Below are positions 17,872-38,015 of a stretch of DNA of 64,000 bases, piece after piece. Origin of the DNA: Nonlabens antarcticus (GTDB taxonomy: Bacteria; Bacteroidota; Bacteroidia; Flavobacteriales; Flavobacteriaceae). The notes under the pieces are model-generated. The model was given only the letters and a program-made list of their open reading frames with translations. It was not told the origin of the DNA and made no database searches. Every line of letters starts with the position of its first letter. Positions within the stretch are counted from its first letter, which is position 1. The stretch spans positions 310,001-374,000 of the forward strand of contig NZ_JADFCO010000066.1 in assembly GCF_015356755.1 (NCBI RefSeq), in the 5' to 3' direction. The position numbers and the translations under genes are program-made.

Positions 17872-18201
17872 AATTTCATTCCGGGTTCTATGACAAACAA
17901 TTTAAAAGGAGTTCTAGTAAATACAAAATAATAGCAATCATGGTTCTTAAGGTTTTAGCGGTGAGTCTTTGAGTTTATAGTATTTAATGTTTTGTCAAGC
18001 CAATTATAGATTCATTGGTTTCTTAGTTTGATCTAGAAGGTTCTGAGGAGGCAAGAGTTACCTCATTACCCACTTCGTCTACATTCCTTGAAAACAGTAC
18101 ATAATTCCATGGGAGAGAAACGATTCTTAATTCAAACAGGTTTATCATAAGTGCGGTAGTGGTTATTTTCCAAAATCGTTATCTAGCTTCGGATCTCTTG
18201 A
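17872..18201. other. Convergent intergenic region, nothing recognised
   Basis: 330 bases between the convergent TrkA-C gene and the second ABC ATPase. No hairpin with T-tract and no credible open frame was found. Confidence 0.5.
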
Positions 18202-18879
18202 CTATTTTTCCTTTTTTGAATCACGGCATCCATCCAGCAAATGGATCGTGCGTGTTCCATAAGAAGCATTTTTATCAGAATGTGTGGCTTGAATGATGGT
18301 CACTCCCTCCTTGTTCAAATCCTGAAAAAGCTGCATAATCTCATCACTTTGTGCGCTGTTTAGATTTCCGGTGGGTTCGTCTGCCAGAATCAATTTGGGC
18401 TTTGCAATCAAAGCTCTAGCAACGCCTACAAGCTGCTGCTGACCGCCTGAAAGTTGGCTGGGAAATAGATCTTTTTTACCGACGATGTTGAAACGGTCCA
18501 GCATGTCTGCTACCAGTGCTTTACGCTCTGAAGATTTGACTCCTTTATAAAGTAACGGTGTTTCTATATTTTCATAAACGGTCAGCTCATCAATCAAGTG
18601 ATAAGCTTGAAAAACGAAGCCTATGGTTTCTTTATAGAGTTTGGATTTTTGTTTTTCTTTTAAATTGTGAACCGGTTCATCCAGAAATAGGTACTCACCT
18701 TCTTGGAATCCGTCGAGCATCCCGATGATATTCAGCAACGTAGATTTTCCAGATCCTGAAGGTCCCATGATGGAGATGAATTCGCCCTGCTCGACGTCGA
18801 GCGATAAGTCATTAAGCAGGAAGACCCGTCTGCCTCCTTGATTGACCCATTTGTAGATGTTTTTAAGTTGTAGTAGCAT
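18202..18879 (-). CDS. ABC transporter ATP-binding protein (LolD/MacB type), second copy
   Basis: 225 residues. Walker A GPSGSGKST is at 39-47, then the Q-loop (GFVFQAYHL), signature LSGGQQQ, Walker B LILADEPTG with the catalytic Glu, and the switch His in ATHSD. Two positions differ from the sister ATPase at 37243: Leu instead of Arg after LSGGQQQ, and Asn instead of Asp in the D-loop (GNLNS). It should energise a FtsX-type permease, most likely the one encoded upstream at 19461-21860. The two genes are separated by the 53-bp repeat array and share the promoter module at 21.9-22.0 kb. Confidence 0.88.
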   Translation of the reverse strand: MLLQLKNIYKWVNQGGRRVFLLNDLSLDVEQGEFISIMGPSGSGKSTLLNIIGMLDGFQEGEYLFLDEPVHNLKEKQKSKLYKETIGFVFQAYHLIDELTVYENIETPLLYKGVKSSERKALVADMLDRFNIVGKKDLFPSQLSGGQQQLVGVARALIAKPKLILADEPTGNLNSAQSDEIMQLFQDLNKEGVTIIQATHSDKNASYGTRTIHLLDGCRDSKKEK

Positions 18880-18895
18880 TGTTTTTGTTTTTCTG

Positions 18896-19419
18896 TTTTC
18901 GGCGCAACGCTTGCGCCTTCCTCTGACGGATGCGATCCGCCCTCACCGTTTTCGGCGCAACGCTTGCGCCTTCCTCTGACGGATGCGATCTGCCCTCACC
19001 GTTTTCGGCGCAACGCTTGCGCCTTCCTCTGACGGATGCGATCTGCCCTCACCTTTCTAGGCGCAACGCTTGCGCCTTCCTCTGACGGATGCGATCTGCC
19101 CTCACCGTTCTCGGCGCAACGCTTGCGCCTTCCTCTGGCGGATGCGATCTGCCCTCACCGTTCTAGGCGCAACGCTTGCGCCTTCCTCTGACGGATGCGA
19201 TCCGCGCTCACCGTTTTCTGCGCAACGCTTGCGCCTTCCTCTGGCGACTGCGATCCGCCCTTACGGTTCTAAGCGCAACGCTTGCGCCTTCCTCTGGCGG
19301 ATGCAATCTGCCCTCACCGTTTTCGGCGCAACGCTTGCGCCTTCCTCTGACGGATGCGATCTGCCCTCACCGTTTTCGGCGCAACGCTTGCGCCTTCTTC
19401 TGGCGGATGCGATCTGCCT
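18896..19419. repeat. Ten-copy 53-bp tandem repeat array with hairpin core
   Basis: The unit begins GGCGCAACGCTTGCGCC (stem GGCGCAA / TTGCGCC, 3-base loop). Units start at 18901, 18954, 19007, 19060, 19113, 19166, 19219, 19272, 19325 and 19378, an exact 53-base period; the last unit is truncated. Units differ by a few substitutions (e.g. GTTTTCGG / GTTCTAGG) and no indels. The array is much richer in G+C than its surroundings. It lies between the stop of permease G and the start of the second ATPase, so it would be transcribed as ten successive hairpins. Confidence 0.95.
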
Positions 19420-19423
19420 TTCA

Positions 19424-19435
19424 CTTTCGCGAAAG
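19424..19435. repeat. CTTTCGCGAAAG, shortened copy of the palindrome
   Basis: A 12-bp perfect palindrome with one outer pair lost relative to the 14-bp core. It sits between the 53-bp array and the stop codon of permease G. Confidence 0.85.
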
Positions 19436-19460
19436 CGATATTGGGTTCTATCCACCACTT

Positions 19461-21860
19461 TTATTCCATTTTCAAACTATCAATGGGGTTTGCAACAGCG
19501 GCTTTTATTGCTTGAAAACTAACGGTAAGCAAAGCGATCAATAGAGCGGCAATACCTGCAAAAGCAAATACCCAAATATTGATTTCGGTACGGTATGCAA
19601 AATCCAGCAGCCACTCGTGCATCAACCAGTAAGCGACCGGTGCTGCGATAACAAAGGCAATAATGATGAGTTTTAGAAAATCTTTAGACAATAGCTGTGT
19701 TATTCCAGCAACTGTGGCGCCCAGCACTTTACGCATTCCTATTTCTTTGGTGCGCTGTTCTGCCGTGAAAGCAGCCAAACCAAACAGACCCAGGCACGCG
19801 ATGAAAATAGCGATGATGGAAAAAACGGTAATAGTTTTGGCAGTCTTTTCTTCAGAAGCGTATAACTGCGCGACATGCCGGTCTAGAAACTGATAATCAA
19901 AGGCGGTGCTGGGCAGGTTATCAGTAAAAGATTTTTCTATTTGCTCCATGAATTGTGGCAGATTCTGGGAATTGTAGCGCACTAACAACGTACGGATTCC
20001 CTCTGGAGCTCTGGTAGATTTGTAATACATATAACCGCCCACATCTTCCTTGAGCGAATTAAAATTAAAATCATCGACCACGCCTGTGATGATGGCTCGG
20101 TTTCCCAGCTCTGTGTTTATAATTTTACCTATGGCATCATCTGGTGTTTTATAGCCCAGATAGTTCAAAATATTTTCATTGATCAGCGTGTAGATCGTAG
20201 AATCGCCTGCGGCGATGGTTTCAGGAAGCTCGCTCCCTGCAAGAATTTTGAGTTTTAATGTCTCTACGACATTACCGTAAGTACGGCAGCTTGCAATAGG
20301 CATTCCGGTAATATCTGTAGCAAGTTTGCGCACTGCCCTGCCGCTTTCAACGCCTCCTGGTATGGACTGCACAGCTGATAAGCTTTCCACGCTTGTTTGA
20401 CCTTGCAAATTTTGAATCAGGTTTTGAACCTGCTGATCACTCTGGGCAGACTTGATCGAGATAGCGACAATGCCATTGGGGTCGTAGCCTAGATTTTTAT
20501 TTTTCATAAAATCCATTTGCTGCAAGATGATCGTGACTGAAATGATCAGCACGATAGAGGCGGCAAACTGAAATACCACAAGTCCTTTACGTATAAATTC
20601 TGATGCAGCCCCAGCCGACTTTGATTTGTTGACCAAAACCAACGGCGAGATTCCCGACATCGAGATTGCCGGATAACTTCCCGCAATAATGGTAACCACT
20701 ATCCAGATAACCATTAAACCGAGTAGTAAAGGCGTGGCCACTAAACTGGAAACAGCAAGTTCATTACCTGTGACGCTTTCAAAATAGGGCAGTGCAATAA
20801 ATGAACCCGCATAGCCCAGGACCATTGAAATGAATACCAGAACTGCCGTTTCTACGTAGAATAACGTTAGCATCTGACTACGGTTTGCGCCCAGCACTTT
20901 GTTCATTCCTATTCCTTTGGCACGTTTGCGGGACTTTGCAGTGGCGAGGTTCATATAATTGATACAGGCAATGAATAGAATGAGTAGAGAAAGAAAAAGT
21001 AGACTTTTTACAGTATTGCCATTTCCCAGTTTAGTACTGTAACCCTCTCTAACATCTGTAGAGTATAAATGAATATCAGTCAACGGCTGAAAAATAAATT
21101 CTGTAAAATACTGGTATTCTTTATCTACATTTTTATCGATTAAGGCCGTTGCGTTTTTTTCTGAATTGGCCACGTCGGCTCCTTCCTGCAACTGTACATA
21201 AGTTTCAAAACTGGCATTGCTCCAGGAAACATCAGTTCCCATCCAGGAATCCATAATATTAGACACCATCGCATAATCCATTACGCTATTTTCAGGCATA
21301 TCTGCATAAATACCGGCTACTTGAAGAGTATCTCTGTTATTGACCGTGATCAGTTCGTCCATGGCGTCCTGCTCGCCGAATAAGCGCTGCTTTGCCGTTT
21401 GAGATAGCACGATGGTGTTCGGTTTTGAAAACGCAGACTCCCCAGTTCCTTGCAGGAATTCAAAATCAAACATATCAAATAGCGCGGCATCTGCTAGATA
21501 ATGGTTGGTTTCGGTAAAATTTTTATCGCCTACTTTGAGAGAAGCGGTGGCGCCAAAATCATTTTTAATAAGCCGTGCCATGCGCTCTACCTGAGGAAGG
21601 TCTTGCTGGATGGCAGGGCCCACGGCGTTGGGCATGGTCGCCCAGACCTCATAATCATATTCTTCGGTCGTTTCCATATTGACCCGGTATATCTGGTCTG
21701 CATGAGTGTACATTTTATCAAAACCCAGTTCCTTATTGATGAAGGCAAAAAGGAGGATGCAAACGCCCACACCTATGGCAAGTCCAGCAATATTGAGCAT
21801 TGTGAACGTTTTATCCTTCCACAGGTTTCTAAATGCCATTTTGATATAATTCCTGATCAT
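19461..21860 (-). CDS. ABC transporter permease G (MacB/FtsX type)
   Basis: 799 residues with the double-FtsX layout: N-terminal helix (~20-42), a large periplasmic MacB-like domain with the conserved TDIHLYS, three helices of FtsX domain 1 (~285-405), a middle helix (~425-450), a second periplasmic domain, and three C-terminal helices (FtsX domain 2, EIGMRKVLGA) ending NPIDSLKME. The first cytoplasmic motif reads RAKGIGMNKVLGAN where the sister proteins have KEIG/REVG-x-RK, so this coupling loop has diverged. It is first gene after the internal promoter module at 21918-22023 and probably pairs with the ATPase at 18202. Confidence 0.92.
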   Translation of the reverse strand: MIRNYIKMAFRNLWKDKTFTMLNIAGLAIGVGVCILLFAFINKELGFDKMYTHADQIYRVNMETTEEYDYEVWATMPNAVGPAIQQDLPQVERMARLIKNDFGATASLKVGDKNFTETNHYLADAALFDMFDFEFLQGTGESAFSKPNTIVLSQTAKQRLFGEQDAMDELITVNNRDTLQVAGIYADMPENSVMDYAMVSNIMDSWMGTDVSWSNASFETYVQLQEGADVANSEKNATALIDKNVDKEYQYFTEFIFQPLTDIHLYSTDVREGYSTKLGNGNTVKSLLFLSLLILFIACINYMNLATAKSRKRAKGIGMNKVLGANRSQMLTLFYVETAVLVFISMVLGYAGSFIALPYFESVTGNELAVSSLVATPLLLGLMVIWIVVTIIAGSYPAISMSGISPLVLVNKSKSAGAASEFIRKGLVVFQFAASIVLIISVTIILQQMDFMKNKNLGYDPNGIVAISIKSAQSDQQVQNLIQNLQGQTSVESLSAVQSIPGGVESGRAVRKLATDITGMPIASCRTYGNVVETLKLKILAGSELPETIAAGDSTIYTLINENILNYLGYKTPDDAIGKIINTELGNRAIITGVVDDFNFNSLKEDVGGYMYYKSTRAPEGIRTLLVRYNSQNLPQFMEQIEKSFTDNLPSTAFDYQFLDRHVAQLYASEEKTAKTITVFSIIAIFIACLGLFGLAAFTAEQRTKEIGMRKVLGATVAGITQLLSKDFLKLIIIAFVIAAPVAYWLMHEWLLDFAYRTEINIWVFAFAGIAALLIALLTVSFQAIKAAVANPIDSLKME

Positions 21861-21917
21861 TGTTTTTAGTATTTGTCCCGATGGCTGTCGGGATTAATTT
21901 CATGTTAAGTTTAATGT

Positions 21918-21932
21918 CACAATAATGCCATA
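21918..21932 (-). promoter_or_regulatory. Conserved promoter-like box upstream of permease G
   Basis: The minus strand reads TATGGCATTATTGTG, 58 bases before the permease G start codon. It matches the box in front of the adaptor gene (39475-39489) at 14 of 15 positions. TGGCA resembles the -24 element of sigma-54 promoters, but the -12 GC is not at the canonical distance, so the sigma factor is uncertain. Confidence 0.6.
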
Positions 21933-21983
21933 AAAATAATTATCTGTAAATCAATTACTTGACAATGATTTGCCGTGGTTTAA

Positions 21984-22002
21984 GTGTACGGTTTTGATAC
22001 AG
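21984..22002 (-). promoter_or_regulatory. Regulator binding site, proximal copy (permease G promoter)
   Basis: The minus strand reads CTGTATCAAAACCGTACAC, an imperfect inverted repeat (TGTA-N9-TACA). It matches 17 of 19 positions of the proximal site at 39540-39558. It is 51 bases from the promoter-like box, against 50 there. Confidence 0.7.
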
Positions 22003-22004
22003 TA

Positions 22005-22023
22005 GCGTACGGTATCGGGACAG
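22005..22023 (-). promoter_or_regulatory. Regulator binding site, distal copy (permease G promoter)
   Basis: The minus strand reads CTGTCCCGATACCGTACGC and matches 14 of 19 positions of the proximal site. The centre-to-centre offset is 21 bases, two helical turns, as expected for cooperative binding of an enhancer-binding regulator. Confidence 0.55.
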
Positions 22024-22083
22024 AATCTGTGCTTTAATGCAATGCTTTTCCTACTATTTACAGATGTGATCTGTATAGTTATC

Positions 22084-22178
22084 GGCGCAATGCTTGCGCC
22101 TAGTGATGAGGTGCAATGCTTGCGCCTAGTGATGAGGCGCAACGCTTGCGCCTAATGATGAGGCGCAACGCTTGCTCT
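22084..22178. repeat. Four-copy 26-bp hairpin repeat
   Basis: Units start at 22084, 22110, 22136 and 22162. Each begins with GGCGCAACGCTTGCGCC or a near variant, followed by TAGTGATGA or TAATGATGA; the fourth unit decays after CGCTTGC. The hairpin core equals that of the 53-bp array at 18.9 kb, but the spacer and period differ. Confidence 0.9.
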
Positions 22179-22186
22179 TGATTTTC

Positions 22187-22202
22187 CGCTTTCGCGAAAG
22201 CG
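22187..22202. repeat. CGCTTTCGCGAAAGCG palindrome
   Basis: A perfect copy six bases after the stop codon of permease F (minus strand). Confidence 0.95.
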
Positions 22203-22207
22203 AACCC

Positions 22208-24652
22208 TTACTCAGTTTTCAGACTATCCACGGGATTTTTCATCGCTGTGGTAATGGTTTTAAAACTCATGATCAACATCGCGATTATAATCATACTAAT
22301 GCCTGCTGCGAGAAAAATCCACAAGCTGACGTCCGTTTTATAAGCAAAGTCTGTCAGCCATAAATCCAGCGCGTAATAAGCGATGGGAGTGGCAATCACA
22401 AAAGCAACCAGCACCAAAACCAGGAATTCCCGACATAACAAATTATTGATTTGCAACACCGTTGCACCCAATACCTTGCGGATTCCTATTTCCTTTGTCC
22501 GGCGCTCTGTGCTATGAATAACAAGGCCCAGCAACCCCAGGCAACTTATCAATATCGCAAGTCCCGTTGCCCAGTTGAGTAAAGTAGAGATACGTTGTTC
22601 TTCCACATAAAAGCGAGCGATGGACTCATCTACAAAAGTTGCTTGAAACGTTTCACCAGGATAAACCTTATTAAATTTTTGTTTTACCAAGGCTAGAGTT
22701 TCTTGCCAGCTGGTTGTATGTCTAGCAAGGGTTATATGTGCATATGTAAATTTTGTTCTACGCTTCCTACTTGTATCACCGGTAAACGCAAGCGGAACAA
22801 TTTCTGACTTAAGGGATCGCTGATTAAAATCCCCCATCACGCCCACGACTAATTTTTCTTTACCACTAAATTCAATGTATTTGTCAATGGCATCCTCAGG
22901 GTTTTTAAATCCGAAAGCATGCATAGCAGTTTCATTGATGACATACTCCTCAATAGTGTCATTTCTAATGGTTCTTCCTGCTAGTAGCGGTATTTTATAT
23001 ATCTCGAGGTAATTTGTATCTCCATTAAGAACTTGTATGTCTTTAATGATCTCCTCTTTTCCGGTTTTGTAAACGGCACTGCGTGTAGCCATATTTTGGG
23101 AGGCTGGTGGCATGCCGCCCAGACTTATTTGAGATATGCTGGGAATACTTTGGATACTGGTTTCCAATACTTGTCTGCTAGCAAATTGGTCATCTGTCCA
23201 TGGTGTCTGAACATAAGCAATTGCATCAGTCTGAAAACCCAAGTCCTTATTCATCATGAAATGAATCTGCTTACCTACCAACAGCGTCGCGATGATAAAT
23301 ACCTGCGCTATTGTAAATTGAAATACGGTAAGAACCTTGCGCGTCTCACTGTTTTTATTAGATAAGAATGTATCACCCTTTAAAACTTTTACAGGCTTCA
23401 ATTGAGATAGCACAAGGCTGGGATAAATTCCAGAAAGAAATGCTACTACCATAAATGTGAGGACGATGAACAAAATTATTTGAGGTTGCAGCATAATGGA
23501 TGCATTTAGACCTCTAGGGATATATTCATCAAAAACGTCTAGCATCCAAATGGATAACCCTATGGAGACCACTGCGGCAACTCCTGTAATTAAAAACGTT
23601 TCCGTTAGAAATTGAAAGAAGAGTTGTTTTCTGGAACTCCCCAAGGTTTTACGCACTCCTATTTCTTTAGCTCTTTGCGTTGCTTGTGCCGTGTTCAGAT
23701 TGATAAAATTGATACTTCCCAGTAGTAATAGAAAAAGGGCGATCACAGCGAGTGCAATGAGAACTTCCTTACTGGATTGAAGTTCTGTATAGTCATAAAC
23801 ACCATAATCGGCATTTAAGTGAATATCTGATAAGGGCTGCATTTTGAAATGACGTGTCTGCCCAAATTGTTCTGAATACTCATCTTTATGCGCTATGGCT
23901 AGTTGATCCAACTGTGACTGGATGGATCCAACACTTGTGTTTTCTTGAAGTTTAATAAACAGCTGACTTGCAGAGCTCGTCATGCCCCAGTCGTCGGTAA
24001 AAATCTGATCGGCATCCTCAGTCTGTCTCGCGGTTTCAAGGGAAACAAATTCGTTAAAAACAATATCTGTCCGCTCATCAAAATCTGCTACGATACCTTT
24101 TACTTGTGCTGTGATAGTTTCATTATAGATAATATTCTTACCAATGATATCTTCAGGAAGTAAGGTTGGAAAATATTCTTTGGCGCGTTTTGCTGTGAGG
24201 ACGACTTCGTTGGGCCGGTTCAATATGTCATTCTTGGATCCAGCGATCCATTTATACTCAAAAAGCTCAAAATAAGCCTGATCTGTAAGAATAATTTTCT
24301 CTGGATCCATAAATATTTGATCAGAGGAGTCTGCTTTTACTTTACCTACCCACCACTTATAAAAGAAGGCAGACTGCTCGATTCCAGTGATACTTGTATT
24401 TGTAGCAAGACGCAAGGTAGCGGTAATGCCACTATTGTAATCTATGCCTTGCGCATCTTCAATATCAGTTACTAACCTGTATATTCTATCGCCGTCTTCA
24501 TGGAATTTATCAAACGTAAAATCATAATACACCATCATCCCAATCACAAATGATGCGCTCAGCCCTATGGAAAGACTAATGATGTTGATCATGGAAAACG
24601 TTTTGCTTTTCCATAAACTTCTCCACGCTATTTTGATATAGTTTCTAAACAT
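22208..24652 (-). CDS. ABC transporter permease F (MacB/FtsX type)
   Basis: 814 residues with the same double-FtsX architecture. The N-terminal helix follows MFRNYIKIAWRSLWKSKTFS. The periplasmic domain has LSDIHLNADYG, FtsX-1 has RAKEIGVRKTLGSSR and FtsX-2 has RTKEIGIRKVLGATV, with C-terminus NPVDSLKTE. It is the last gene of the long adaptor-led series; a 347-bp regulatory spacer follows. Substrate is unknown; homologues move lipids, peptides or antibiotics or act as mechanotransmission pumps from the periplasm. Confidence 0.92.
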   Translation of the reverse strand: MFRNYIKIAWRSLWKSKTFSMINIISLSIGLSASFVIGMMVYYDFTFDKFHEDGDRIYRLVTDIEDAQGIDYNSGITATLRLATNTSITGIEQSAFFYKWWVGKVKADSSDQIFMDPEKIILTDQAYFELFEYKWIAGSKNDILNRPNEVVLTAKRAKEYFPTLLPEDIIGKNIIYNETITAQVKGIVADFDERTDIVFNEFVSLETARQTEDADQIFTDDWGMTSSASQLFIKLQENTSVGSIQSQLDQLAIAHKDEYSEQFGQTRHFKMQPLSDIHLNADYGVYDYTELQSSKEVLIALAVIALFLLLLGSINFINLNTAQATQRAKEIGVRKTLGSSRKQLFFQFLTETFLITGVAAVVSIGLSIWMLDVFDEYIPRGLNASIMLQPQIILFIVLTFMVVAFLSGIYPSLVLSQLKPVKVLKGDTFLSNKNSETRKVLTVFQFTIAQVFIIATLLVGKQIHFMMNKDLGFQTDAIAYVQTPWTDDQFASRQVLETSIQSIPSISQISLGGMPPASQNMATRSAVYKTGKEEIIKDIQVLNGDTNYLEIYKIPLLAGRTIRNDTIEEYVINETAMHAFGFKNPEDAIDKYIEFSGKEKLVVGVMGDFNQRSLKSEIVPLAFTGDTSRKRRTKFTYAHITLARHTTSWQETLALVKQKFNKVYPGETFQATFVDESIARFYVEEQRISTLLNWATGLAILISCLGLLGLVIHSTERRTKEIGIRKVLGATVLQINNLLCREFLVLVLVAFVIATPIAYYALDLWLTDFAYKTDVSLWIFLAAGISMIIIAMLIMSFKTITTAMKNPVDSLKTE

Positions 24653-24676
24653 AATTCTTGTTGTTAGGTTCCTAGT

Positions 24677-24702
24677 AAGTCCGCTTTCGCGAAAGCGGAC
24701 TT
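24677..24702. repeat. Extended 26-bp copy of the palindrome
   Basis: The core GCTTTCGCGAAAGC at 24683-24696 is flanked by perfectly complementary AAGTCC / GGACTT arms, making this the longest copy in the window. It lies between permeases E and F. Confidence 0.95.
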
Positions 24703-24720
24703 TACAGAAGCTCTATTGCT

Positions 24721-27132
24721 TTATTCGGTCTTCAAACTATTTATAGGATTTGCCATTGCTGCTTTGATGGCTTGAAAGCTTACCGAAAGCAGCGCTATCG
24801 ATAAAGCGGCCAGACCTGCAATCGCAAAAACCCACCAGCTCAATGTGGTCTTATAAGCAAACTCCTGCAACCATTGCGTCATGATATACCATGATATAGG
24901 CACGGCGACCAAAAATGCAATGATCACCAACTTTAAAAAATCTTTATTGAGTAACGTCAAGATCTGTAGAACACTAGCGCCACTTACCTTGCGGATTCCG
25001 ATTTCCTTTTTGCGCTGTAAAATGGTATATGAAGTCAGGCCAAATAATCCCAGTCCAGCAATAAAAATAGCAAGTCCCGTAAAGAGTTGAAACGCCTGGC
25101 CAAACTGCTTATCCTCCCGATACTGCGCTTCAAACTTTTGGTCTAGGAACGTATATTTCAACGTGCTGTTTGGAAAAATTTCCTTCCATTTTGAACTTAG
25201 CTCATCCAGATGTTGCTCCATACCAGTGATGGAGGTATTTGTATCATCAAACTTCACTAGAATAGTTTTCATTCCCTTATAGGAGCTTATGATGAGTGGC
25301 GCAATTTGCTCTTTGAGTCCAAAATGGTGGTAATCTTCCATCACGCCAGAAATCGTGGAGGTACTCCCCCAGAATTTTACACTTTTACCAATGATCTCCT
25401 GAGCATTTTGATAACCCATAATTCTTGCAAAAGTCTCATTGATCACGATGTCTTCACGTTCTTCTGTATTTTTGAAAAAGGGCTTTCCTGCCAGAATTTT
25501 TATATCGAGCAGGTCAAAATATTCTGGTTGTGCACCATAGATGTAAAATAGTTGTTGTGGGCGCTCGATACCATCGGGATAAATGATGCCAACTGTAGAG
25601 GATAGGTTGTCATAACCGTCACCAGGATAGGTTCTTGTACGACTCACATTTTTAACAAATGGCAATTGTAGCAGCTCCGCCTGAAGAACATCCGCTTTTT
25701 GAATGATAAGCGAGTCCCGAACATTTCCCAGCAATTCGCTTTTCAATGCAACAACATTGGAAAGTTCTGCACCTATGGGTTGTTCTCGCAAATAATCGAT
25801 TTGCTTACTAACTACTAAGGTACCGATGATCAGAATTGCAGTTGCCATAAACTGGACTGTTATCAAGACTTTTCTTATTCCTATACCACCTTTAGCTACT
25901 CGTATTTTTCCCTTGAGTGCGCGCAAGGGAGAAAACCCGCTTATCACTACAGCAGGATAAATGCCGGAGAGTAAGGTTCCCGCTAGAATGAATAATAAAA
26001 AGGGTATGATGGTGGAAAAGTTGGACAGACCTAGAATTAGTTCTTTACCGACAAACTGGTTGAAAAGTGGCAGTAATAAAAAAACCATTCCTAATCCCAC
26101 CAAAATGGCAAATACATTGAGCAACAAAGATTCACCAAAGGATTGAAAGATCAACTGATAACGGTGTGCTCCAGCGACTTTTCTTATCCCAACCTCACGG
26201 GAACGTTCTAGGGATTTGGCTGTGGCGAGATTGACATAATTGAGCCAAGAAAGCACTAAAATAATAAATGCTATGGCAGATAGAAAACGTATGCGGCTAA
26301 TGCTACCATTAGCCTCTGCTTCGTAAGGTTTGTTTGAATATAGATGGATATCTGTAAGCGCTTCAATATTGTGTCGCTCGTCGGGATCATCCTCAAAATC
26401 GGTATTTTTTATTTTCTCCCGTAACGCAGCGACATCAACATTGGGATCAAGTTTTATGTAGGTAAAAAAATTATTTGCCCTCCAGTTGGGCTCTTCATTG
26501 CCAAACTTTGACGCCCAGGTATTCATAGTAGAAAATGAAATAAAATAGGTGGTTTTAAAATGCGTATTATCTGCAATATCATTGACCAGACCTACCACTT
26601 CTAGCGTTGCCTCACTACCGTCATAAACGGAAATACGCTTGCCTATGGCTTGTTGGTCACCAAAAATTTTATCGGCCAGACTTTGAGTTAGGATTATGGT
26701 ATTGGGCTTTTCAAAATCGGTTAGGTTTCCAGCGATTAATGAGGTATTGAAAATATCAAAATAAGTGGCGTCTGCCAGCGCGCCATTATGCTGCTCCATA
26801 ACCTTCTCGCCATGGACAAAGGTTACTTTATCTAAACGAAACAAACGTACCTGTTCTATAATCTCTGGAAATTCTTTTTTAAAGGTCGGGCCGGAGAGGT
26901 TATAGGTTTGGGCATCACCAGGACTAAAAGTATCTCCTATTTTGTAGTCCATAAAAATGCGATATACTTGAGAAGAACCGTCAAAATGGTCATAACTGCG
27001 CTCATAACTCACGTATAGCGAGATAATCACAAAGGCAGCGATTCCCAATGCTAATCCCATGATGTTGAGTATAGAATACAACTTATTCTTCATCAGGTAA
27101 CGAAGCGCTATTTTAAAGTTGTTTTTGAACAT
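24721..27132 (-). CDS. ABC transporter permease E (MacB/FtsX type)
   Basis: 803 residues from the ATG at 27132, which gives the family N-terminus MFKNNFKIALRYLMKNKLYS. An in-frame ATG 66 bases upstream would add 22 residues with no family match. The periplasmic domain contains LTDIHLYSNKPY. FtsX-1 has RSREVGIRKVAGAHR, FtsX-2 has RKKEIGIRKVSGASV, and the C-terminus is NPINSLKTE. It has eight predicted helices. It is in the middle of the permease series, preceded and followed by palindrome copies. Confidence 0.92.
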   Translation of the reverse strand: MFKNNFKIALRYLMKNKLYSILNIMGLALGIAAFVIISLYVSYERSYDHFDGSSQVYRIFMDYKIGDTFSPGDAQTYNLSGPTFKKEFPEIIEQVRLFRLDKVTFVHGEKVMEQHNGALADATYFDIFNTSLIAGNLTDFEKPNTIILTQSLADKIFGDQQAIGKRISVYDGSEATLEVVGLVNDIADNTHFKTTYFISFSTMNTWASKFGNEEPNWRANNFFTYIKLDPNVDVAALREKIKNTDFEDDPDERHNIEALTDIHLYSNKPYEAEANGSISRIRFLSAIAFIILVLSWLNYVNLATAKSLERSREVGIRKVAGAHRYQLIFQSFGESLLLNVFAILVGLGMVFLLLPLFNQFVGKELILGLSNFSTIIPFLLFILAGTLLSGIYPAVVISGFSPLRALKGKIRVAKGGIGIRKVLITVQFMATAILIIGTLVVSKQIDYLREQPIGAELSNVVALKSELLGNVRDSLIIQKADVLQAELLQLPFVKNVSRTRTYPGDGYDNLSSTVGIIYPDGIERPQQLFYIYGAQPEYFDLLDIKILAGKPFFKNTEEREDIVINETFARIMGYQNAQEIIGKSVKFWGSTSTISGVMEDYHHFGLKEQIAPLIISSYKGMKTILVKFDDTNTSITGMEQHLDELSSKWKEIFPNSTLKYTFLDQKFEAQYREDKQFGQAFQLFTGLAIFIAGLGLFGLTSYTILQRKKEIGIRKVSGASVLQILTLLNKDFLKLVIIAFLVAVPISWYIMTQWLQEFAYKTTLSWWVFAIAGLAALSIALLSVSFQAIKAAMANPINSLKTE

Positions 27133-27209
27133 GGTTTCTTTGGTTAGGTTATCAATTTTATTGAGGTTGCTTTCGAACCCCATTGAGTGCGGTATCAACT
27201 TCCTTTAGA

Positions 27210-27227
27210 TCGCTTTCGCGAAAGCGA
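27210..27227. repeat. Palindrome copy, 18 bp
   Basis: Perfect TCGCTTTCGCGAAAGCGA between permeases D and E. Confidence 0.95.
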
Positions 27228-27332
27228 AAACATCTCAAATCTTTCATTTACCTTCTAGCTTTTCGTCTCTTTTGCTAAACTCTTTCTTCTTTCCTTTCTA
27301 TTCTATTTCCAGAGTGCTACTCGTCTTTTAAA

Positions 27333-29750
27333 TCACTCCGTTTTCAAACTATCCACAGGATTTGCAACCGCCGCCGCAATAGTTCGCACGCTGATGGTTA
27401 GAATGGCGATGAATAAAGCTATTAAACCCGCAGCGCCAAAAATCCAAATACTCAAATCAATGCGATACGTATAGCCTTGCAGCCATTGGTTTGCAAAGTA
27501 GTAGGCGAGTGGTGCTGCGATAACAAAGGCTATGGCCACCAGTTTTAAAAAGTCCTTAGTCAATAAAACCGTGATGGTAGAAATACTCGCACCCACCACC
27601 TTGCGGATTCCTATTTCCTTCCTGCGCTGCGCCACTACTAATAATGAAATGGCAAACAGACCTATACAACTAAGAACGATTGCGAGGACAGAACCACTGG
27701 AAATCATCGTGGTCATATACCGTTCTTTCATAAGCGTGCGATCAATATTTTCATCCAGAAAGGAACCTATAAACTCATGGTCTGGCTCAATGGTTTCCCA
27801 GGCAGATTTTACGGTATTATAAGATGCCTGTAAATTCCCTGGAGCTACTTTTATATAAGCATATCTCATAATGGCATCGTTATTCATAAACAAGGTAAGA
27901 GGTTCAATGGATTGATTTAAATCCTGAAAGTTGTAATCCTTAACGACCCCTATAACATTGAATTTTGCCACATCCAGATCTACCACAATATCCAGCGGAT
28001 TCTCCACATCAAACTGTTTGGCCATGCTTTCATTTATGACTACAGACAGGCTGTCTGCTGCATATGCCCGATTGTGGGTACGTCCGGCAACTAAGTGAAT
28101 ATCCAGCGTTTCTGGGTAATCAAAATCTACACTTAGCATATTTGTTTTTACCTCGCGGCCTTCATATTCAAAGCCCAAAACACTGGTGGATCGGGAACGG
28201 TCCTTGCCCATCCCCAATATATTATTTGCAGCGGTAATGCTCAGGATATTTGGTTTACTGGACAACTCATCCCTCAATAATTGCATCAATTTTTCAGGAT
28301 CCTTGGTGCTTTTTAAGGGTACAGCGATAACTTGGTCTTTATTAAATCCTAAATCCTTAGACCTCAAATAATCTAACTGATTCCATAAAACAAGCGTACC
28401 ACTGATCAAAACAATGGCAATAGAAAACTGAACGATCATCAACACATCCCGTACATAGTTTTTTCCCGTAACCTGCAATTTTCCCTTTAACGCCTGTAGC
28501 GTTTCCAGCCTGCTCATCAATAGCGCTGGGTAGCCGCCGGCAACAAGCGTGATGATTAAAAAGCTAGCGACGGCAGCAACAATAATCGCAGGGTTTGCAA
28601 AGGCACTAAAGGTAGCTTTAGTGCGGAATAATTCCTGGAAAGAGGGGAGCAGTAGTAGCGCGATGCCGTAAGCGAATAGCAATGATCCTACAAAAACGAG
28701 CATGCTCTCACCCCAAAACTGAAAGAACAACTGCTTCTTACTGGCGCCTAACGTTTTACGCATTCCTATTTCCTTCAAACGCTTCGTTCCCTTACCGATG
28801 CTCATGTTGATAAAATTCACGCTGGCGATAAAGATGATGAGTAAAGCAATCCCTAAAATCAGATAGTGCATGGTCTTGTCAACTTCTAGAATCCCGTTGG
28901 AGATACTGGTAAAATTGATATCGGTGAGGGGTAATAATTTGATTTGTTGGTACAGCCCGTCTGCATTAGGCTGCGCACCATCGCGTTTTGCATCGTTAAT
29001 GTCACCTCCATAATGCAGCGACGTAAATGCGATTGTGGACTTCTCAAAGGCTTCTGGATTGATTCCATTTTCTAATTGGATATACACCTCGTGGTTGTGG
29101 CGGTCCCATCGGTCCAGGTTGTCACCATAAACACGATTGGGCAAATTCTTAAAATTGAAGACTACGTCAAACGCCATACTGCTATTGTCTGGAAAATCCT
29201 TTACCACAGCGGTTATCGTGACGGGCGATTGCTCACCATCCTGGAGCAATACAAAGGTTTTTCCGACTGGATTTTCTTCTCCGTAAAAGCGTTTTGCAGC
29301 GTGCTCAGTAATAACAGCAGCATTTTTATCCTGAAGAATTTTATCGCGGCTTCCCTTTACCACTGGAAAAGAGAACATCTTAAAGAAATCCCGATCTGCC
29401 CAGGTGGCACTTATGCTAAAACTCTTATCGTCCAGGATGATGGATGATCCTCCCGTCATAATTCGTGTGATGTTTTCAATTCCAGGAACTTCTGCGCGCA
29501 AAGCGTCTGCAAACGGTACTGGATTTGAGATGCTGGATTCCATGCCCTGTGGTGTTTCAGAGTTTGTGTATACCTGATAGATCGAACTATTGTTCTCGTG
29601 AAATTTATCGTAGGATAATTCGAACAGGGCATAGGTGCACAATAGGAATGCGACACTAAACGCAGCGGTTAATCCTACCACATTCAAAGCGGTGAATGTG
29701 CGCTCCTTCCATAAATTCCTGAAGGCTAGCTTTAAATAATTCCTGATCAT
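27333..29750 (-). CDS. ABC transporter permease D (MacB/FtsX type)
   Basis: 805 residues with the double-FtsX layout. The N-terminus is MIRNYLKLAFRNLWKERTFT, followed by the first helix. The periplasmic domain replaces the usual DIHLYS with LTDINFTSISNG. FtsX-1 has RLKEIGMRKTLGASK, FtsX-2 has RRKEIGIRKVVGASI and the C-terminus is NPVDSLKTE. The sequence differs from its neighbours over most of the periplasmic regions, so its ligand is probably different. It is an interior gene of the series. Confidence 0.92.
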   Translation of the reverse strand: MIRNYLKLAFRNLWKERTFTALNVVGLTAAFSVAFLLCTYALFELSYDKFHENNSSIYQVYTNSETPQGMESSISNPVPFADALRAEVPGIENITRIMTGGSSIILDDKSFSISATWADRDFFKMFSFPVVKGSRDKILQDKNAAVITEHAAKRFYGEENPVGKTFVLLQDGEQSPVTITAVVKDFPDNSSMAFDVVFNFKNLPNRVYGDNLDRWDRHNHEVYIQLENGINPEAFEKSTIAFTSLHYGGDINDAKRDGAQPNADGLYQQIKLLPLTDINFTSISNGILEVDKTMHYLILGIALLIIFIASVNFINMSIGKGTKRLKEIGMRKTLGASKKQLFFQFWGESMLVFVGSLLFAYGIALLLLPSFQELFRTKATFSAFANPAIIVAAVASFLIITLVAGGYPALLMSRLETLQALKGKLQVTGKNYVRDVLMIVQFSIAIVLISGTLVLWNQLDYLRSKDLGFNKDQVIAVPLKSTKDPEKLMQLLRDELSSKPNILSITAANNILGMGKDRSRSTSVLGFEYEGREVKTNMLSVDFDYPETLDIHLVAGRTHNRAYAADSLSVVINESMAKQFDVENPLDIVVDLDVAKFNVIGVVKDYNFQDLNQSIEPLTLFMNNDAIMRYAYIKVAPGNLQASYNTVKSAWETIEPDHEFIGSFLDENIDRTLMKERYMTTMISSGSVLAIVLSCIGLFAISLLVVAQRRKEIGIRKVVGASISTITVLLTKDFLKLVAIAFVIAAPLAYYFANQWLQGYTYRIDLSIWIFGAAGLIALFIAILTISVRTIAAAVANPVDSLKTE

Positions 29751-29780
29751 GATGGTTGTTTTAAGGTGTTAGTTTTATAC

Positions 29781-29796
29781 CGCTTTCGCGAAAGCG
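29781..29796. repeat. CGCTTTCGCGAAAGCG palindrome
   Basis: A perfect copy between permeases C and D. Confidence 0.95.
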
Positions 29797-29819
29797 AAAA
29801 TGTTATAATACCAATGCTA

Positions 29820-32183
29820 CTATTCGGTTTTTAAACTATTTACAGGATTTGCAATTGCAGCCTTGACCGCCTGGAAACTCACGGTCAGTAGTGCAATCGC
29901 AAGGGCAATAACCGCTGCAAATAAAAATATCCAGAAATTAAACTCAATACGATATGCATAATCCTGAAGCCAATTATCCATCAAGAAATAACCTACTGGT
30001 ATCGCAATAATTACAGAAATCAATACCAGTTTTAGAAAATCTCGAGATAAAAGTTTAACGATGTTTGTCACACTGGAGCCCAGCACTTTGCGCACACCTA
30101 TTTCCTTGCGACGCTGCTCTGCAGTGTAAGCTGATAACCCGAACAGCCCTAAACAGGAAATAATTACCGCAATAAGCGCAAAAATCTGGGAGAGTTTACC
30201 TACCAAGTTTTCGCTCTTGAATTGCGCGTCAAAACCAGCATCTACAAACTCGTATTCTAACGGGAAAGCTGGATTGTATTTTGTTAAGGTCTGTTCGATC
30301 TGGTGTAATGCAGCTGTTACATCTGCTTCTCGAGGAAATCGCAGGTAAAGAAACCGTGCCTGATCTGGAGCATTTAGAAACAATACGGGATCGCTGGTGC
30401 CGTACATATCACCATAGAGGTAATCTTCTGCAACGGCTATTACCGTAAAGTCGTCTCCCCAACGATTGATTTTTTTGCCTACGGCGCTGCCTTCACCCAT
30501 AAGCCTTGCAAAGGTCTCACTAATGATGGCGCTGGTGCTATCTTTAGCAATGTCAGTACTGAACGGCCTTCCATCTATAAGTTTTATTCCTACAGTTTGA
30601 AAAAAATCATTACTCACATGGCGATAGCTGACTAAAATATTTTCAGTATCGTTTCCACCTTGCCAGGTTAACCCAGATCCATTATTCCCGCCATTCAGGA
30701 TTTGGGAATCACATAAGGCGATGTTCTTTATCTGGTTACCAGCCAATAATTCCTGCTGGATAGGTTCAAAATTTTTGACAATATCGCCATTCACGGGAAC
30801 TCGTAAGAGGTTTTCCTTGTTATAACCTAAGTCGCGGCCTTTCACATATTGTATCTGCTCATAAACCGTAAACGTGCAAATAATAAACACGATGGAAATA
30901 GCAAACTGACCTATTACCAGTCCCTTTCTAATAAAACTGGCACTTCCAGATGTCGTTCGAACCCCCTTTAATACATCCACGGGCTTGAAGGAAGATAAAT
31001 AAAAGGCGGGATACAGTCCCGCAAGAATCCCTAAACCTAGCGTTATGACGACCAGGCCTATAATATGCATAGGGTTGTCCCAACCTATAGTCAACTGTTT
31101 TTCAATCAATGTGTTGTAGAAAGGTAAAAGAATGGTGATAAATGCAATGCTAAATAATGACGCGATCGCGGTCGTCATTACCGCTTCTGTAATGAATTGA
31201 TTTATCAGGCTTCTTTTGTCAGATCCCAAAGCTTTTCTAACGCCTACTTCATTGGCTCTTTTTTCACTGCGAGCCGTGGATAGATTCATGAAATTAATAC
31301 ATGCAATCAATAATATGAAAAGCGCAACAACGGTGAATAGCCTCACGTAAAGAATACGGCCACCGGCCGGCTCCCCATTTTCATAGCTCTCTGTGCCGCG
31401 CAAGTGCCAGTCTTTCATGGCGTGCAAGAAGAAAACGGAGTCGTCCTCCCCAAATTTATTCATTACAAAATCACGCACGCCCTGATCCACTGTTTCAAAA
31501 TCTGAATTGGGAGCTAATTTTACAAAGGTGTTGGCAAAGTTGGCACCATATTCCTTCGTCCATGGATTATCCACTTCAAAGTTTCTAAAGGGCAGCAAAC
31601 AATCGAAATCATAGGTGACGTTAGGAGGAAGATCTGCTACAACACCAGTGATTTTAAAGATTTCTTGATTGTTGAGTTTGATGCTTTCACCTAGTACATG
31701 AACATCCTCCCCAAAAAGCTGATCTGCCATGGTTCTGGTAATCACAATAGATTTAATGTCTTTTAATGCCGTGCTGGCATCACCTTCTAGAAAGTCAAAT
31801 TTGAAAATGTTTAAATACTCTGGATCCACATAAGAACCCGTTTTATTAATTGATTTATCATTAGCATTAAGCAGGAACCCGCTTTCTCGCACACGAGATG
31901 TAAAATCGATTCCCGGAACGTTTCTTTTAAGATCTGCGGCAAGTGGTCCAGGTGTCGCCTGTTTAAAAGTTCTCCATTCCCCATCATATTCTTGATTGCT
32001 GGGAACCTCATAAATTAATTCAGAGTCGGCAAAATAGGTGTTGTAGTTCAGCTCGTCTTCCACCCATAGAAAGATCAAGGCCGCACAAGTTATCCCTATC
32101 GCAAGACCGAAAATATTCAGTGCGCTATATCCCTTGCTTTTCCAAAGGTTTCTCCAGGCTATTTTAATATAATTTCTGATCAT
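29820..32183 (-). CDS. ABC transporter permease C (MacB/FtsX type)
   Basis: 787 residues, the shortest of the seven. The N-terminus is MIRNYIKIAWRNLWKSKGYS. The first periplasmic domain has MKDWHLRGTESYENGEPAGG in place of the DIHLYS motif. FtsX-1 has RANEVGVRKALGSDK, FtsX-2 has RRKEIGVRKVLGSSV, and the C-terminus is NPVNSLKTE. Eight hydrophobic helices are in the expected places. The DWHLRG variant marks a different subfamily from A, E and G, which keep DIHLYS. Confidence 0.92.
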   Translation of the reverse strand: MIRNYIKIAWRNLWKSKGYSALNIFGLAIGITCAALIFLWVEDELNYNTYFADSELIYEVPSNQEYDGEWRTFKQATPGPLAADLKRNVPGIDFTSRVRESGFLLNANDKSINKTGSYVDPEYLNIFKFDFLEGDASTALKDIKSIVITRTMADQLFGEDVHVLGESIKLNNQEIFKITGVVADLPPNVTYDFDCLLPFRNFEVDNPWTKEYGANFANTFVKLAPNSDFETVDQGVRDFVMNKFGEDDSVFFLHAMKDWHLRGTESYENGEPAGGRILYVRLFTVVALFILLIACINFMNLSTARSEKRANEVGVRKALGSDKRSLINQFITEAVMTTAIASLFSIAFITILLPFYNTLIEKQLTIGWDNPMHIIGLVVITLGLGILAGLYPAFYLSSFKPVDVLKGVRTTSGSASFIRKGLVIGQFAISIVFIICTFTVYEQIQYVKGRDLGYNKENLLRVPVNGDIVKNFEPIQQELLAGNQIKNIALCDSQILNGGNNGSGLTWQGGNDTENILVSYRHVSNDFFQTVGIKLIDGRPFSTDIAKDSTSAIISETFARLMGEGSAVGKKINRWGDDFTVIAVAEDYLYGDMYGTSDPVLFLNAPDQARFLYLRFPREADVTAALHQIEQTLTKYNPAFPLEYEFVDAGFDAQFKSENLVGKLSQIFALIAVIISCLGLFGLSAYTAEQRRKEIGVRKVLGSSVTNIVKLLSRDFLKLVLISVIIAIPVGYFLMDNWLQDYAYRIEFNFWIFLFAAVIALAIALLTVSFQAVKAAIANPVNSLKTE

Positions 32184-32232
32184 GATTTATAATTTTTTGG
32201 CGGTATTGTTGCCTTTATATTTAATAGAGTCC

Positions 32233-32246
32233 GCTTTCGCGAAAGC
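32233..32246. repeat. GCTTTCGCGAAAGC palindrome
   Basis: A perfect 14-bp copy between permeases B and C. Confidence 0.95.
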
Positions 32247-32267
32247 TTAATGAAACCCATAACTGTT

Positions 32268-34697
32268 TTACGCATCAATTTTTAAACTATCTACCGGATT
32301 TGCAATGGCCGCTTTTATGGTTTGAACCGCAATGGTTAAAAGAGCAACTATTAAGGTGATCGCTGCCGCAGCTACAAAAACCCACCAGGAAACGCTTGTG
32401 CGATAAGCAAAACCTAGAAGCCATTCATTTACAAAATAGTACGAAATAGGAGCTCCTATAAGAGCTGCAATACCTATCAGTTTTATAAAATCTTTAGAGA
32501 ATAGCAATACGATATTGCTCACTGAAGCACCCAGAACTTTGCGTATTCCTATTTCCTTCATGCGCAAGGCGGTGGCCTGTGCGATTAATCCTAAAATCCC
32601 TAAAGCCGCCAGTAACATGCTCAGTCCGCTAAAAAAGCTGAAAAACTGTTGCAATCTGGTTTCCTTGAGATATTGCCTTTGCACGGTTTCATCAACCCAA
32701 TTCAAATCCAATAGTTTAACTGGATATATTTCCTTCCAAAGTGTCTGTAATTGTGGTAGTGCCTGCTGAATTGCTTCTGGATCCAAACGAATCAACATAC
32801 CGCCATACTGCGGATTAGATTCTGCTATGATAACAGTGGGCGACATGGATTGACGTAAAGATTCGTTATGAAAATCTTTTAGAATACCGATTGGATTAGT
32901 TTCAACACTATGAATAGGAGTGTTCAGGTTTTTAATATCTAAAGCCTTTGAGGTATATTCCGAAATTAAAGATGATTGCAGGTTGATCTCCTGTTCATCA
33001 TCATCAAAAACGATTTCACTTTCTGATGCTGGAGTATCTGTCGATATCTCTTTATTAAAAAGACGGCCTGTCTTCAATTTTAGTCCTAATGTAACGGGTA
33101 GATCTGCATCACCTCTTATAAAATCTACTTCCAAAAACTGATCTTTGTTAAATGGATCCTCTGCTTTTTTTGTCATGTAAGTAGAGCTAGTTCCAGGTAA
33201 AAATGAGGTGATGCTGGCATTTGTAATTCCAGGAATCCTGAGCAACCTGTCTTTAAATGTATCTGCCTTATTATCCCAAGAAATATTAGAAACGGCCAAG
33301 AGGTTTTCGGTATTATAACCCAGATCTTTATTCTTCATAAAGCTCACCTGATTGTCCACCACAATCAGGGCAATCAAAACCACCGTGGAGATGGCAAATT
33401 GGAACGTGACCAGTCCTTTCTGAACAATAGACTGAAAGTTTGCGCCAGATGTTTTCAAAGACCCCTTTAAACTTGCTGCCGCCTTAAGTTTAGACATTAA
33501 CAACGCAGGATATAAGCCTACAAAAATGCTGACTAATAACACGACCCCATATCCCATTGCTAATAATTGCAGGTCACTCGCAAATGTTTGTTGTAGTTCA
33601 TGACCTATAAAAGACTCCAATAGCGGTAACGTGAGGTAATAGACGATGGTTGCCATGATGGTTGATATAGCAAAGTATAGGATAGCTTCCACTAAAAATT
33701 GTCTGATAATAGCTCGGTTTCCAGCTCCCAATATTTTGCGAACACCTACTTCTTTAATGCGTTGCATACTGCGGGATGCGCTTAGGTTGATAAAGTTGAT
33801 GCATGCAATGATTAACAATAAGATAGAGATACCTGAAAGGATAAATATCGTGTTATAATCTCCCTGAACTTCTTGTGCGGTTTCAAAATCTGAATGCAGA
33901 TAGACATCTTCAATGGGTTGAAAATCATATTCCCACGCTCTTTCGGTTGCTATAAAATCTTTGTACCAAGCATTTACTTTTTTTGTCAAAGCTGTAATGT
34001 CCGTTCCAGCTTTGGTAGTCATATAATATTGTCGGGTTGTACCGTATTGTTCCTTGACCAGTTGTTCTACTCTGGATTTTTTTATGACAATGGCCTGCGC
34101 TCTTAAATGAGTGTTAGCGGGTATATCTTCAATTATTCCCGTGATCAAATATTCATCAGGAGTAGCACCGTAAGTAGGCGCATCATTAATAATTATCCCA
34201 ACGGGATCACTATTTGGAAAATAGGTGTCTTTAAAAGTTTTGGTAATGACAAGATTCGTCGTTCCCTCGACAAAATTTTGCGGACTTCCTTGTAGAATGT
34301 TAAAATCAAGCACATCCCAAATCTTGATGCTTGTATCTAAAATGGTTGTAGAAGTGGTATCATCATTTTCTTTACTGATTTTAAAATTGGTCGTGCCGGA
34401 ACGAAGATTAACAACTGTTTTAATCTCTGGAAAATTTTCTGGAAGTGCATATTCCAATCCAGCAAAAGAAGACGCCATTTTATCGCCAGAGCCTCCATTT
34501 GTGGGTCTTATGCTAAGCAAACGATAAATATTGTCCTTATTTTTCCAGTGGCTATCATATGATAAATCATCGACAACGACAGTTGCAACGCTCAAACAGG
34601 CGCAAAGTCCCACAGATAGTCCTAAAATATTGATTACCGAGAAAAGTTTGTTTTTTCTCAAAGCTCTCCAAGCCATTTTTATATCGTTTCTTATCAT
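32268..34697 (-). CDS. ABC transporter permease B (MacB/FtsX type)
   Basis: 809 residues. The N-terminus is MIRNDIKMAWRALRKNKLFS. The periplasmic domain has IEDVYLHSDFETAQ where others have DIHLYS. FtsX-1 has RIKEVGVRKILGAGN, FtsX-2 has RMKEIGIRKVLGASV, and the C-terminus NPVDSLKIDA carries two extra residues. The second periplasmic domain contains an acidic stretch (VFDDDEQEIN) not seen in the others, which may reflect a cation- or peptide-binding feature or simply drift. Confidence 0.92.
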   Translation of the reverse strand: MIRNDIKMAWRALRKNKLFSVINILGLSVGLCACLSVATVVVDDLSYDSHWKNKDNIYRLLSIRPTNGGSGDKMASSFAGLEYALPENFPEIKTVVNLRSGTTNFKISKENDDTTSTTILDTSIKIWDVLDFNILQGSPQNFVEGTTNLVITKTFKDTYFPNSDPVGIIINDAPTYGATPDEYLITGIIEDIPANTHLRAQAIVIKKSRVEQLVKEQYGTTRQYYMTTKAGTDITALTKKVNAWYKDFIATERAWEYDFQPIEDVYLHSDFETAQEVQGDYNTIFILSGISILLLIIACINFINLSASRSMQRIKEVGVRKILGAGNRAIIRQFLVEAILYFAISTIMATIVYYLTLPLLESFIGHELQQTFASDLQLLAMGYGVVLLVSIFVGLYPALLMSKLKAAASLKGSLKTSGANFQSIVQKGLVTFQFAISTVVLIALIVVDNQVSFMKNKDLGYNTENLLAVSNISWDNKADTFKDRLLRIPGITNASITSFLPGTSSTYMTKKAEDPFNKDQFLEVDFIRGDADLPVTLGLKLKTGRLFNKEISTDTPASESEIVFDDDEQEINLQSSLISEYTSKALDIKNLNTPIHSVETNPIGILKDFHNESLRQSMSPTVIIAESNPQYGGMLIRLDPEAIQQALPQLQTLWKEIYPVKLLDLNWVDETVQRQYLKETRLQQFFSFFSGLSMLLAALGILGLIAQATALRMKEIGIRKVLGASVSNIVLLFSKDFIKLIGIAALIGAPISYYFVNEWLLGFAYRTSVSWWVFVAAAAITLIVALLTIAVQTIKAAIANPVDSLKIDA

Positions 34698-34726
34698 CTT
34701 CTATGTTATAATACTGGTAATTATTC

Positions 34727-34742
34727 CGCTTTCGCGAAAGCG
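34727..34742. repeat. CGCTTTCGCGAAAGCG palindrome
   Basis: A perfect copy three bases beyond the stop codon of permease A. Confidence 0.95.
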
Positions 34743-34745
34743 AAA

Positions 34746-37178: not shown

Positions 37179-37209
37179 GGTTTATTGTTTAAATGATTGC
37201 TTCTATTCC

Positions 37210-37223
37210 GCTTTCGCGAAAGC
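37210..37223. repeat. GCTTTCGCGAAAGC palindrome
   Basis: A perfect copy between the ATPase at 37243 and permease A. Confidence 0.95.
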
Positions 37224-37242
37224 ATAATTGTACCAGACTTTC

Positions 37243-37944: not shown

Positions 37945-37973
37945 AAGTAATGTTTTATATTGTTTTTTAACTG

Positions 37974-38015
37974 CGAGCTGTGAGCTGTTAGCTGTTAGCT
38001 GTGAGCTGTGAGCGT
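37974..38015. repeat. Heptanucleotide tandem repeat (AGCTGTG/AGCTGTT)
   Basis: About six imperfect 7-base units in the spacer between the ATPase start codon and the adaptor gene's 3' end. Confidence 0.8.

Follow-up and report, generated by a model that had tools for sequence, protein, structure and literature searches.

Results

The stretch of DNA analysed here, referred to as the window, comprises 64,000 nucleotides of Nonlabens antarcticus (assembly GCF_015356755.1, contig NZ_JADFCO010000066.1, positions 310,001 to 374,000), a host whose genome amounts to 3.27 Mb in 66 contigs. It holds a minus-strand series of predicted exporter genes, in the order HlyD-type adaptor, ATPase 1, permeases A–F, a 347-bp gap, permease G and ATPase 2. 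Our subject is an element within that gap, at 21918–22023, which resembles the control region in front of the adaptor and is probably a second, internal promoter.

The adaptor (38191–39444) is the first gene of unit 1; its GTG frame begins at 39477, and orthologous alignments begin at residue 11 or 12 in 10 of 12 matches, which places the start near the ATG at 39444. It is followed by ATPase 1 (37243–37944) and by permeases A–F (22208–37178), all of the MacB_PCD/FtsX type. Permease G (MacB_PCD/FtsX; 19461–21860) and ATPase 2 (ABC_tran; 18202–18879) are the first and last genes of the proposed second unit, and a homologue of ATPase 2 is the last gene in most clusters seen whole. Divergent from the adaptor, on the plus strand, lies a two-component pair: an NtrC-class response regulator (39651–40997), with a receiver, an AAA+ domain carrying GAFTDA and a Fis-type helix-turn-helix, and an adjoining sensor histidine kinase (40987–42330). 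The listed frame of the regulator begins at 39600, and its start was set at 39651 from orthologues.

Two copies of one module

The front copy of the module (P1) and the internal copy (P2) are both read on the minus strand and present four elements in the same order. At P2 these are a box CACAATAATGCCATA (21918–21932; minus-strand reading TATGGCATTATTGTG), with a −24-like TGGCA and a variant −12 when aligned with 51 front boxes; an IHF-like palindromic element CAAGTAATTGATTTACAGATAATTA (21937–21961), centred 20 bp upstream of the GG and scoring 17.9 bits with a model from 48 front modules that include the window's own front copy; a predicted proximal regulator site CTGTATCAAAACCGTACAC (21984–22002; 24.7 bits, model made without the window); and a predicted distal site CTGTCCCGATACCGTACGC (22005–22023; 16.3 bits). 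The counterparts at P1 are the box CACAATAGTGCCATA (39475–39489; minus-strand reading TATGGCACTATTGTG), likewise aligned with the front boxes, the palindromic element TAATTAGCTGTCAATCAGTTATTTA (39494–39518), placed by the front-module palindrome model, and the predicted proximal and distal sites GTGTATCAAAATCGTACAC (39540–39558) and GTGTATCAACAGCGCACAG (39562–39580). Direct alignment reproduced what the preliminary description had claimed for the pair: the boxes are identical at 14 of 15 positions and the proximal sites at 17 of 19, the box-to-proximal distance is 51 bases at P2 and 50 at P1, and the proximal-to-distal offset is 21 and 22, respectively. The surrounding sequence is indeed not conserved, with P2/P1 identities of 0.29 upstream, 0.27 downstream and 0.26 in the linker, against 0.29, 0.34 and 0.35 in shuffles.

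A scan of the genome for further copies showed that this arrangement is not genomic background. The composite pattern, consisting of the proximal core, 53–55 bases and GGCA, matches P1 and P2 only (two matches in 3.27 Mb, both in this cluster, and none in the reversed control). The proximal core has two perfect matches in the genome, both in this cluster; the sole match with two mismatches, on contig C64, was rejected as lying within a coding frame, and with three mismatches the core is at background, with 13 genome matches in all against 14 in the reversed control. A candidate third copy at 16377 (15.2 bits) was rejected for lack of a GGCA at the required distance. Counting TGGCAYN3-6TTGC across the genome was uninformative, with 46 matches against 37 in the reversed control (17, 5, 5 and 19 for N3, N4, N5 and N6).

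Conservation of the front module

Orthologues of the kinase (E-values up to 1e-90) were found in 47 of 397 genomes of the family, the window's own counted, and in three more of the same genus (G002, G004 and G015). One of these 50 genomes, G036, was set aside since its contig ends within the regulator, leaving 49 clusters, the window included. A module precedes the adaptor in all 49. The spacing from proximal site to GG in 51 front matches is 53 bases in 40, 52 in eight, 54 in two and 51 in one, and it is 53 bases in 39 of the 48 front modules that directly precede HlyD. Some clusters are arranged differently: G294 and G461 (L164, L159) have an additional front-type module ~1.86 kb upstream of the adaptor, and in G103 (L068) the front module lies 1.2 kb from it. 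These two extra upstream copies and G103 are the three front matches excluded from the palindrome columns. In G324 (L175, L213) the exporter part of the cluster has the reverse orientation and lies ~24 kb from the regulator, with the module before the adaptor retained; this cluster was turned round before counting. Among 80 named loci, 70 passed the module test. Of the ten that did not, nine (three from Chitinophagaceae) show by eye a GGCA box and diverged sites, and one (L114) ends within the regulator.

The composite pattern has 54 matches in the 397 family genomes, assigned by position as 45 in orthologous clusters and nine elsewhere, with five in the reversed control; eight of 350 family genomes without the orthologous kinase (taken as the same draw of 397) have a match. 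A site model trained on 19 sites from 11 of the 49 genomes, which never used the window or any internal copy, found 65 modules on the cluster strand of the 49 clusters (1.8 Mb). The opposite strand, the reversed and the complemented sequence and all six Markov resamples gave none.

The predicted regulator sites are imperfect dyads, GTGT-N11-ACAC, set in tandem 21–22 bp apart. Among 62 proximal sites, no base of TGT or ACA is changed in more than one. In 46 of 62 modules the score detects a distal partner at an offset of 21 or 22 bases, close to two turns of the helix; in some of the remainder a shifted distal site is discernible by eye. Between sites and promoter, the 48 front modules share a palindrome with the consensus TAAN4YTGAWWWTCARN4TTA, centred 20 bases upstream of the GG. 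Its symmetry score peaks only at −20 (2.388; next 0.731), above all 2000 column shuffles. The consensus of columns −20 to −8 of these modules resembles the IHF core WATCARN4TTR, and the full palindrome contains this core on both strands, which is a property of the consensus and not of every module. A paralogous system, with a kinase ~30% identical and with different regulator sites, has this palindrome within one base of the corresponding place in 15 of 16 loci (position taken as the best of 13 offsets). As the two systems share this element and not their regulator sites, the palindrome is probably bound by a protein common to both. Exactly two HU/IHF-family genes are present in each of ten genomes; in the window genome one best matches IHF-alpha and the other HU-beta, both under the cut-off. 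A single IHF-like gene product would form homodimers, fitting a symmetric site.

The predicted promoter box and the NtrC-class regulator

A TGGCA −24 element with its GG is found in both window copies and in all 51 front and 14 internal matches. GGCA was a search criterion and the preceding T was not; the front matches have T in 48, C in two and N in one. Counting from the first G of the GG, T at +10 is invariant in the 51 front boxes, and +12, the place of the canonical G, is A in 31, C in 15, T in five and G in none. The 72 boxes of the named loci, a partly overlapping set, give A 52, C 16, T 4 and G 0. All 16 boxes of the paralogous system have G at +12, and seven of them have the C after it; these boxes were chosen by eye, those of L229 and L230 from several candidates, and L239 was too short. 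Seven of the 16 paralogous loci (L231–L236 and L238) also have a second GGCA box 23 or 24 bases after the first. The odd box may have either a spacing shorter by one base or simply a weak −12 element.

One RpoN (PF04552 match) is encoded in the window genome and one in each of the six genomes searched, the window's included. G065 carries both systems and one RpoN, and G103 has one RpoN and a second cluster whose box has the canonical G. Sigma54_activat, receiver and HTH_8 domains place the regulator in the NtrC class. The activator-domain search of the window genome gave 11 matches, four of which, at E < 1e-60, were taken as true activators. The loop motif, GAFTGA in its plain form, reads GAFTDA in 39 of the 49 clusters, GAFTGA in nine and GAYTDA in one; 79 motifs found among the 80 named loci comprise 73 GAFTDA and six GAFTGA. 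All 17 paralogous regulators have GAFTDA or GSFTDA, and G[AS]FTGA is found in the window genome's other three activators. We rejected a coupling of the odd −12 to the GAFTDA loop: the 17 paralogous regulators have GAFTDA or GSFTDA, yet the 16 readable loci have the canonical G, and plain GAFTGA in nine of the 49 type-1 regulators also contradicts it.

Two further observations concern control regions. A canonical GG-N10-GC box, TGGCACGTGCATTGCC, lies at ~2036 of L245 (minus strand) near another NtrC-type regulator–kinase pair of the same genome, with TTGATAATCAA further upstream. A conserved stretch resembling TTGTAATATTGTA (window ~39625–39650; 49 clusters) ends ~4 bases before the regulator start codon and is perhaps a Bacteroidota housekeeping promoter whose transcript would be almost leaderless.

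The internal copy

An internal module is present in 14 of the 49 clusters, always within the last four gaps leading up to ATPase 2. Four clusters have it immediately in front of ATPase 2 (G038, G040, G306, G346) and eight have it one permease earlier (G000, G015, G237, G256, G294, G305, G434, G461); in G002 it lies two permeases earlier and in G247 three. A figure of 1.8e-06, calculated on the assumption that every module falls in the last three gaps, was set aside, as that of G247 occupies the fourth and the genomes are not independent. Among the named loci, Winogradskyella psychrotolerans RS-3 (L139) carries an internal copy between two of its permeases. Gap lengths were compared in the 39 clusters with both ends in view. 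Module-bearing gaps are longer (median 252.5, minimum 149, n = 14) than module-free gaps (median 48, n = 273), 19% of which also exceed 150 bases.

The permeases behind the internal module are non-orthologous and belong to different families. The closest relatives of permease G (67–70% identical; G427, G372, G243) have no module in front, and in five genomes the module precedes the permease that is nearest to permease C among the window's seven. Since the permeases behind it differ and the relatives of permease G lack it, the internal module tracks a position in the compared clusters, the end with the second ATPase, and not one permease. Mapped on the regulator tree, presence and absence require nine changes, at least five of them forced by well-supported branches, in a count that does not distinguish gain from loss.

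The gap that holds P2 and the one behind permease G both contain repeats. A 53-bp unit occurs in 9.9 copies (92% matches) at 18895–19418, between permease G and ATPase 2, and its consensus contains the hairpin GGCGCAACGCTTGCGCC; a 26-bp unit with the same hairpin occurs in 3.5 copies at 22084–22175, just upstream of P2. The palindrome GCTTTCGCGAAAGC has 16 places in the window at up to one mismatch, with none expected, and lies in the gaps between genes at 22188, 24683, 27212, 29782, 32233, 34728, 37210 and 39610. A role of the copy before P2 as a specific terminator is not supported, since each of the six remaining gaps between ATPase 1 and permease F holds a copy too. A terminator scan of 18000–37990 found 24 candidates, with 17.6 (standard deviation 4.4) expected. 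Outside the cluster, the window carries a Bacteroidales small signal recognition particle RNA at 5392–5499 (102.6 bits).

Discussion

The module is real and conserved and looks like a variant of the enhancer-dependent kind of promoter. The element at 21.9 kb is, with good probability, a further promoter within the cluster, built like the one at the front, and would drive a second co-regulated unit. That such a unit would consist of permease G and ATPase 2 had been proposed in the preliminary description, and the internal modules near ATPase 2 in 14 of 49 clusters support it. In the mechanism we envisage, the histidine kinase would phosphorylate the NtrC-class regulator, which would then occupy the two tandem dyad sites upstream of P1 and P2. 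The DNA between sites and promoter would be bent at the palindrome, most likely by a single IHF-like protein acting as a homodimer, and the AAA+ ring of the regulator would remodel RNA polymerase–sigma-54 at the TGGCA box, giving transcription from both promoters. The P1 transcript would cover the adaptor, ATPase 1 and permeases A–F, and the P2 transcript permease G and ATPase 2; the far end of the 21-kb series would thereby be induced together with its front. The binding partners, sigma-54 dependence, induction and transcript ends in this scheme are what we infer from the sequences.

Several findings weigh against this proposal. The canonical GG-N10-GC is absent from all 51 front and 14 internal matches, and GG-N9-GC fits just seven and one of them, respectively. 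The GAFTGA motif of the regulator reads GAFTDA in the window and in 38 other clusters, and some members have a poor palindrome (the lowest left-out score is −12.2). An internal module is lacking in 25 of the 39 clusters in view from HlyD to ATPase 2, including that of the closest relative, G004. Related genomes also partly share its presence (7 of 500 label shuffles are as low), so the 14 internal copies are not independent. Finally, the 53-bp repeat array between permease G and ATPase 2 may weaken the coupling of ATPase 2 to P2. Because the defining −12 feature was looked for and not found, we describe the control region as working like a sigma-54 promoter and not as a canonical member.

The internal module could instead be a leftover of little use that has persisted by chance, derived from an ancient copy of the front promoter or from the promoter that a formerly separate permease–ATPase unit had, with read-through from P1 sufficing for the distal genes. 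The 25 clusters that do without it fit this explanation, as does the finding, in 14 genomes, that internal elements are closer to their own front copy than to the fronts of other genomes (0.88 versus 0.80 for the proximal site, 0.64 versus 0.52 for the palindrome). The latter also bears on the earlier suggestion that selection on the sites accounts for the resemblance better than recent duplication. For the window this holds, as P1 and P2 agree no better than chance beyond their elements and recent duplication is thus unlikely; an older duplication or concerted change is still compatible with the data, given the closeness of internal elements to their own front copy. However, a leftover would not be expected to keep all elements and their spacing while the sequence around them has fallen to chance level, or to recur in several lineages (the forced changes on the tree), always near the terminal ATPase and before different permeases. 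The module-bearing gaps are also long, where read-through is least certain. On balance we consider a leftover unlikely.

The tandem sites could also be genuine regulator sites of a promoter that is read at the TGGCA box not by sigma-54 but by another sigma factor or a variant holoenzyme. The lack of G at the canonical −12 place in every front and named-locus box speaks for this, as does the predominance of GAFTDA among the 49 regulators. On the other hand, GGCA stands at a nearly fixed distance, the box aligns with the paralogous boxes that all have the canonical G, the paralogous regulators share the altered loop, and each of the six genomes has a single RpoN, which together make a different sigma factor more improbable than a leftover. 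For chance resemblance within AT-rich intergenic DNA there is next to no probability, given 65 modules in real sequence against none in any of the strand, reversal, complement and resampling controls, and a composite pattern and core that are unique to the cluster genome-wide.

Building on the proposed internal promoter, we tentatively raise a broader possibility, to which we would give less than even chances. This regulator family may use a separate class of Bacteroidota sigma-54 promoter, read by the same RpoN, in which the −12 lies one base nearer the −24 (GG-N9-G[AC]) or lacks the canonical G, and which would keep other activators from acting on the regulon. Combined with a bend site for a homodimeric IHF-like protein, it might make up a portable module that evolution has placed again and again in front of the last ATPase as exporter clusters grow. 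The regulon is compact, with one locus in the window genome, and its predicted parts keep a strict geometry across Flavobacteriaceae and into Chitinophagaceae. Three questions become testable with it: can Bacteroidota RpoN use a −12 element that lacks the canonical G, are these promoters bent by a homodimeric IHF-like protein, and for what reason have some long exporter clusters acquired or retained a similar second promoter close to the last ATPase?

Comparison with known systems

The gene products resemble those of MacAB-like systems, the darobactin exporter (DarBCD) and ADOP in combining MacB_PCD/FtsX permeases, an ABC ATPase and a HlyD-like adaptor, and differ from them in having seven permeases for one adaptor in the window. 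Curated NCBIfam cut-offs, applied to permeases D, E and G, both ATPases and the adaptor, were not reached for ADOP (permeases G, E and D at 269.4, 267.7 and 249.8 of 622.3) or for the darobactin exporter (DarD at 297.8 and 239.4 of 375; DarC at 173.6 of 450). A full-text literature search gave no name for the module in the titles or abstract openings of the matches listed.

In the passages considered here, a broad sigma-54 survey (PMC12316311, PLoS One 2025), predictive for Bacteroidota, reports sigma-54 control of ABC-type antimicrobial-peptide permeases (COG0577). The likeness to the present cluster is one of description, the window permeases being assigned to MacB_PCD/FtsX. Read strictly, the consensus TGGCACN5-7TTGCT given in PMC12316311 is not matched by these boxes, a comparison that leaves aside the survey's class-specific matrices, and those passages contain no regulator sites, palindrome or internal copy.

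The closest parallel is with the enhancer-dependent NtrC/sigma-54 promoters, for which binding at upstream activating sequences and IHF-assisted looping are described in the relevant passages of PMC7175178. In both, tandem upstream sites are followed at an almost constant distance by a TGGCA −24, with an IHF-like element in between, and a kinase–regulator pair is adjacent. The module described here differs in its non-canonical −12, its mostly GAFTDA-bearing regulator and its palindromic bend element, and in the presence, in some genomes, of a second whole module inside the target cluster.
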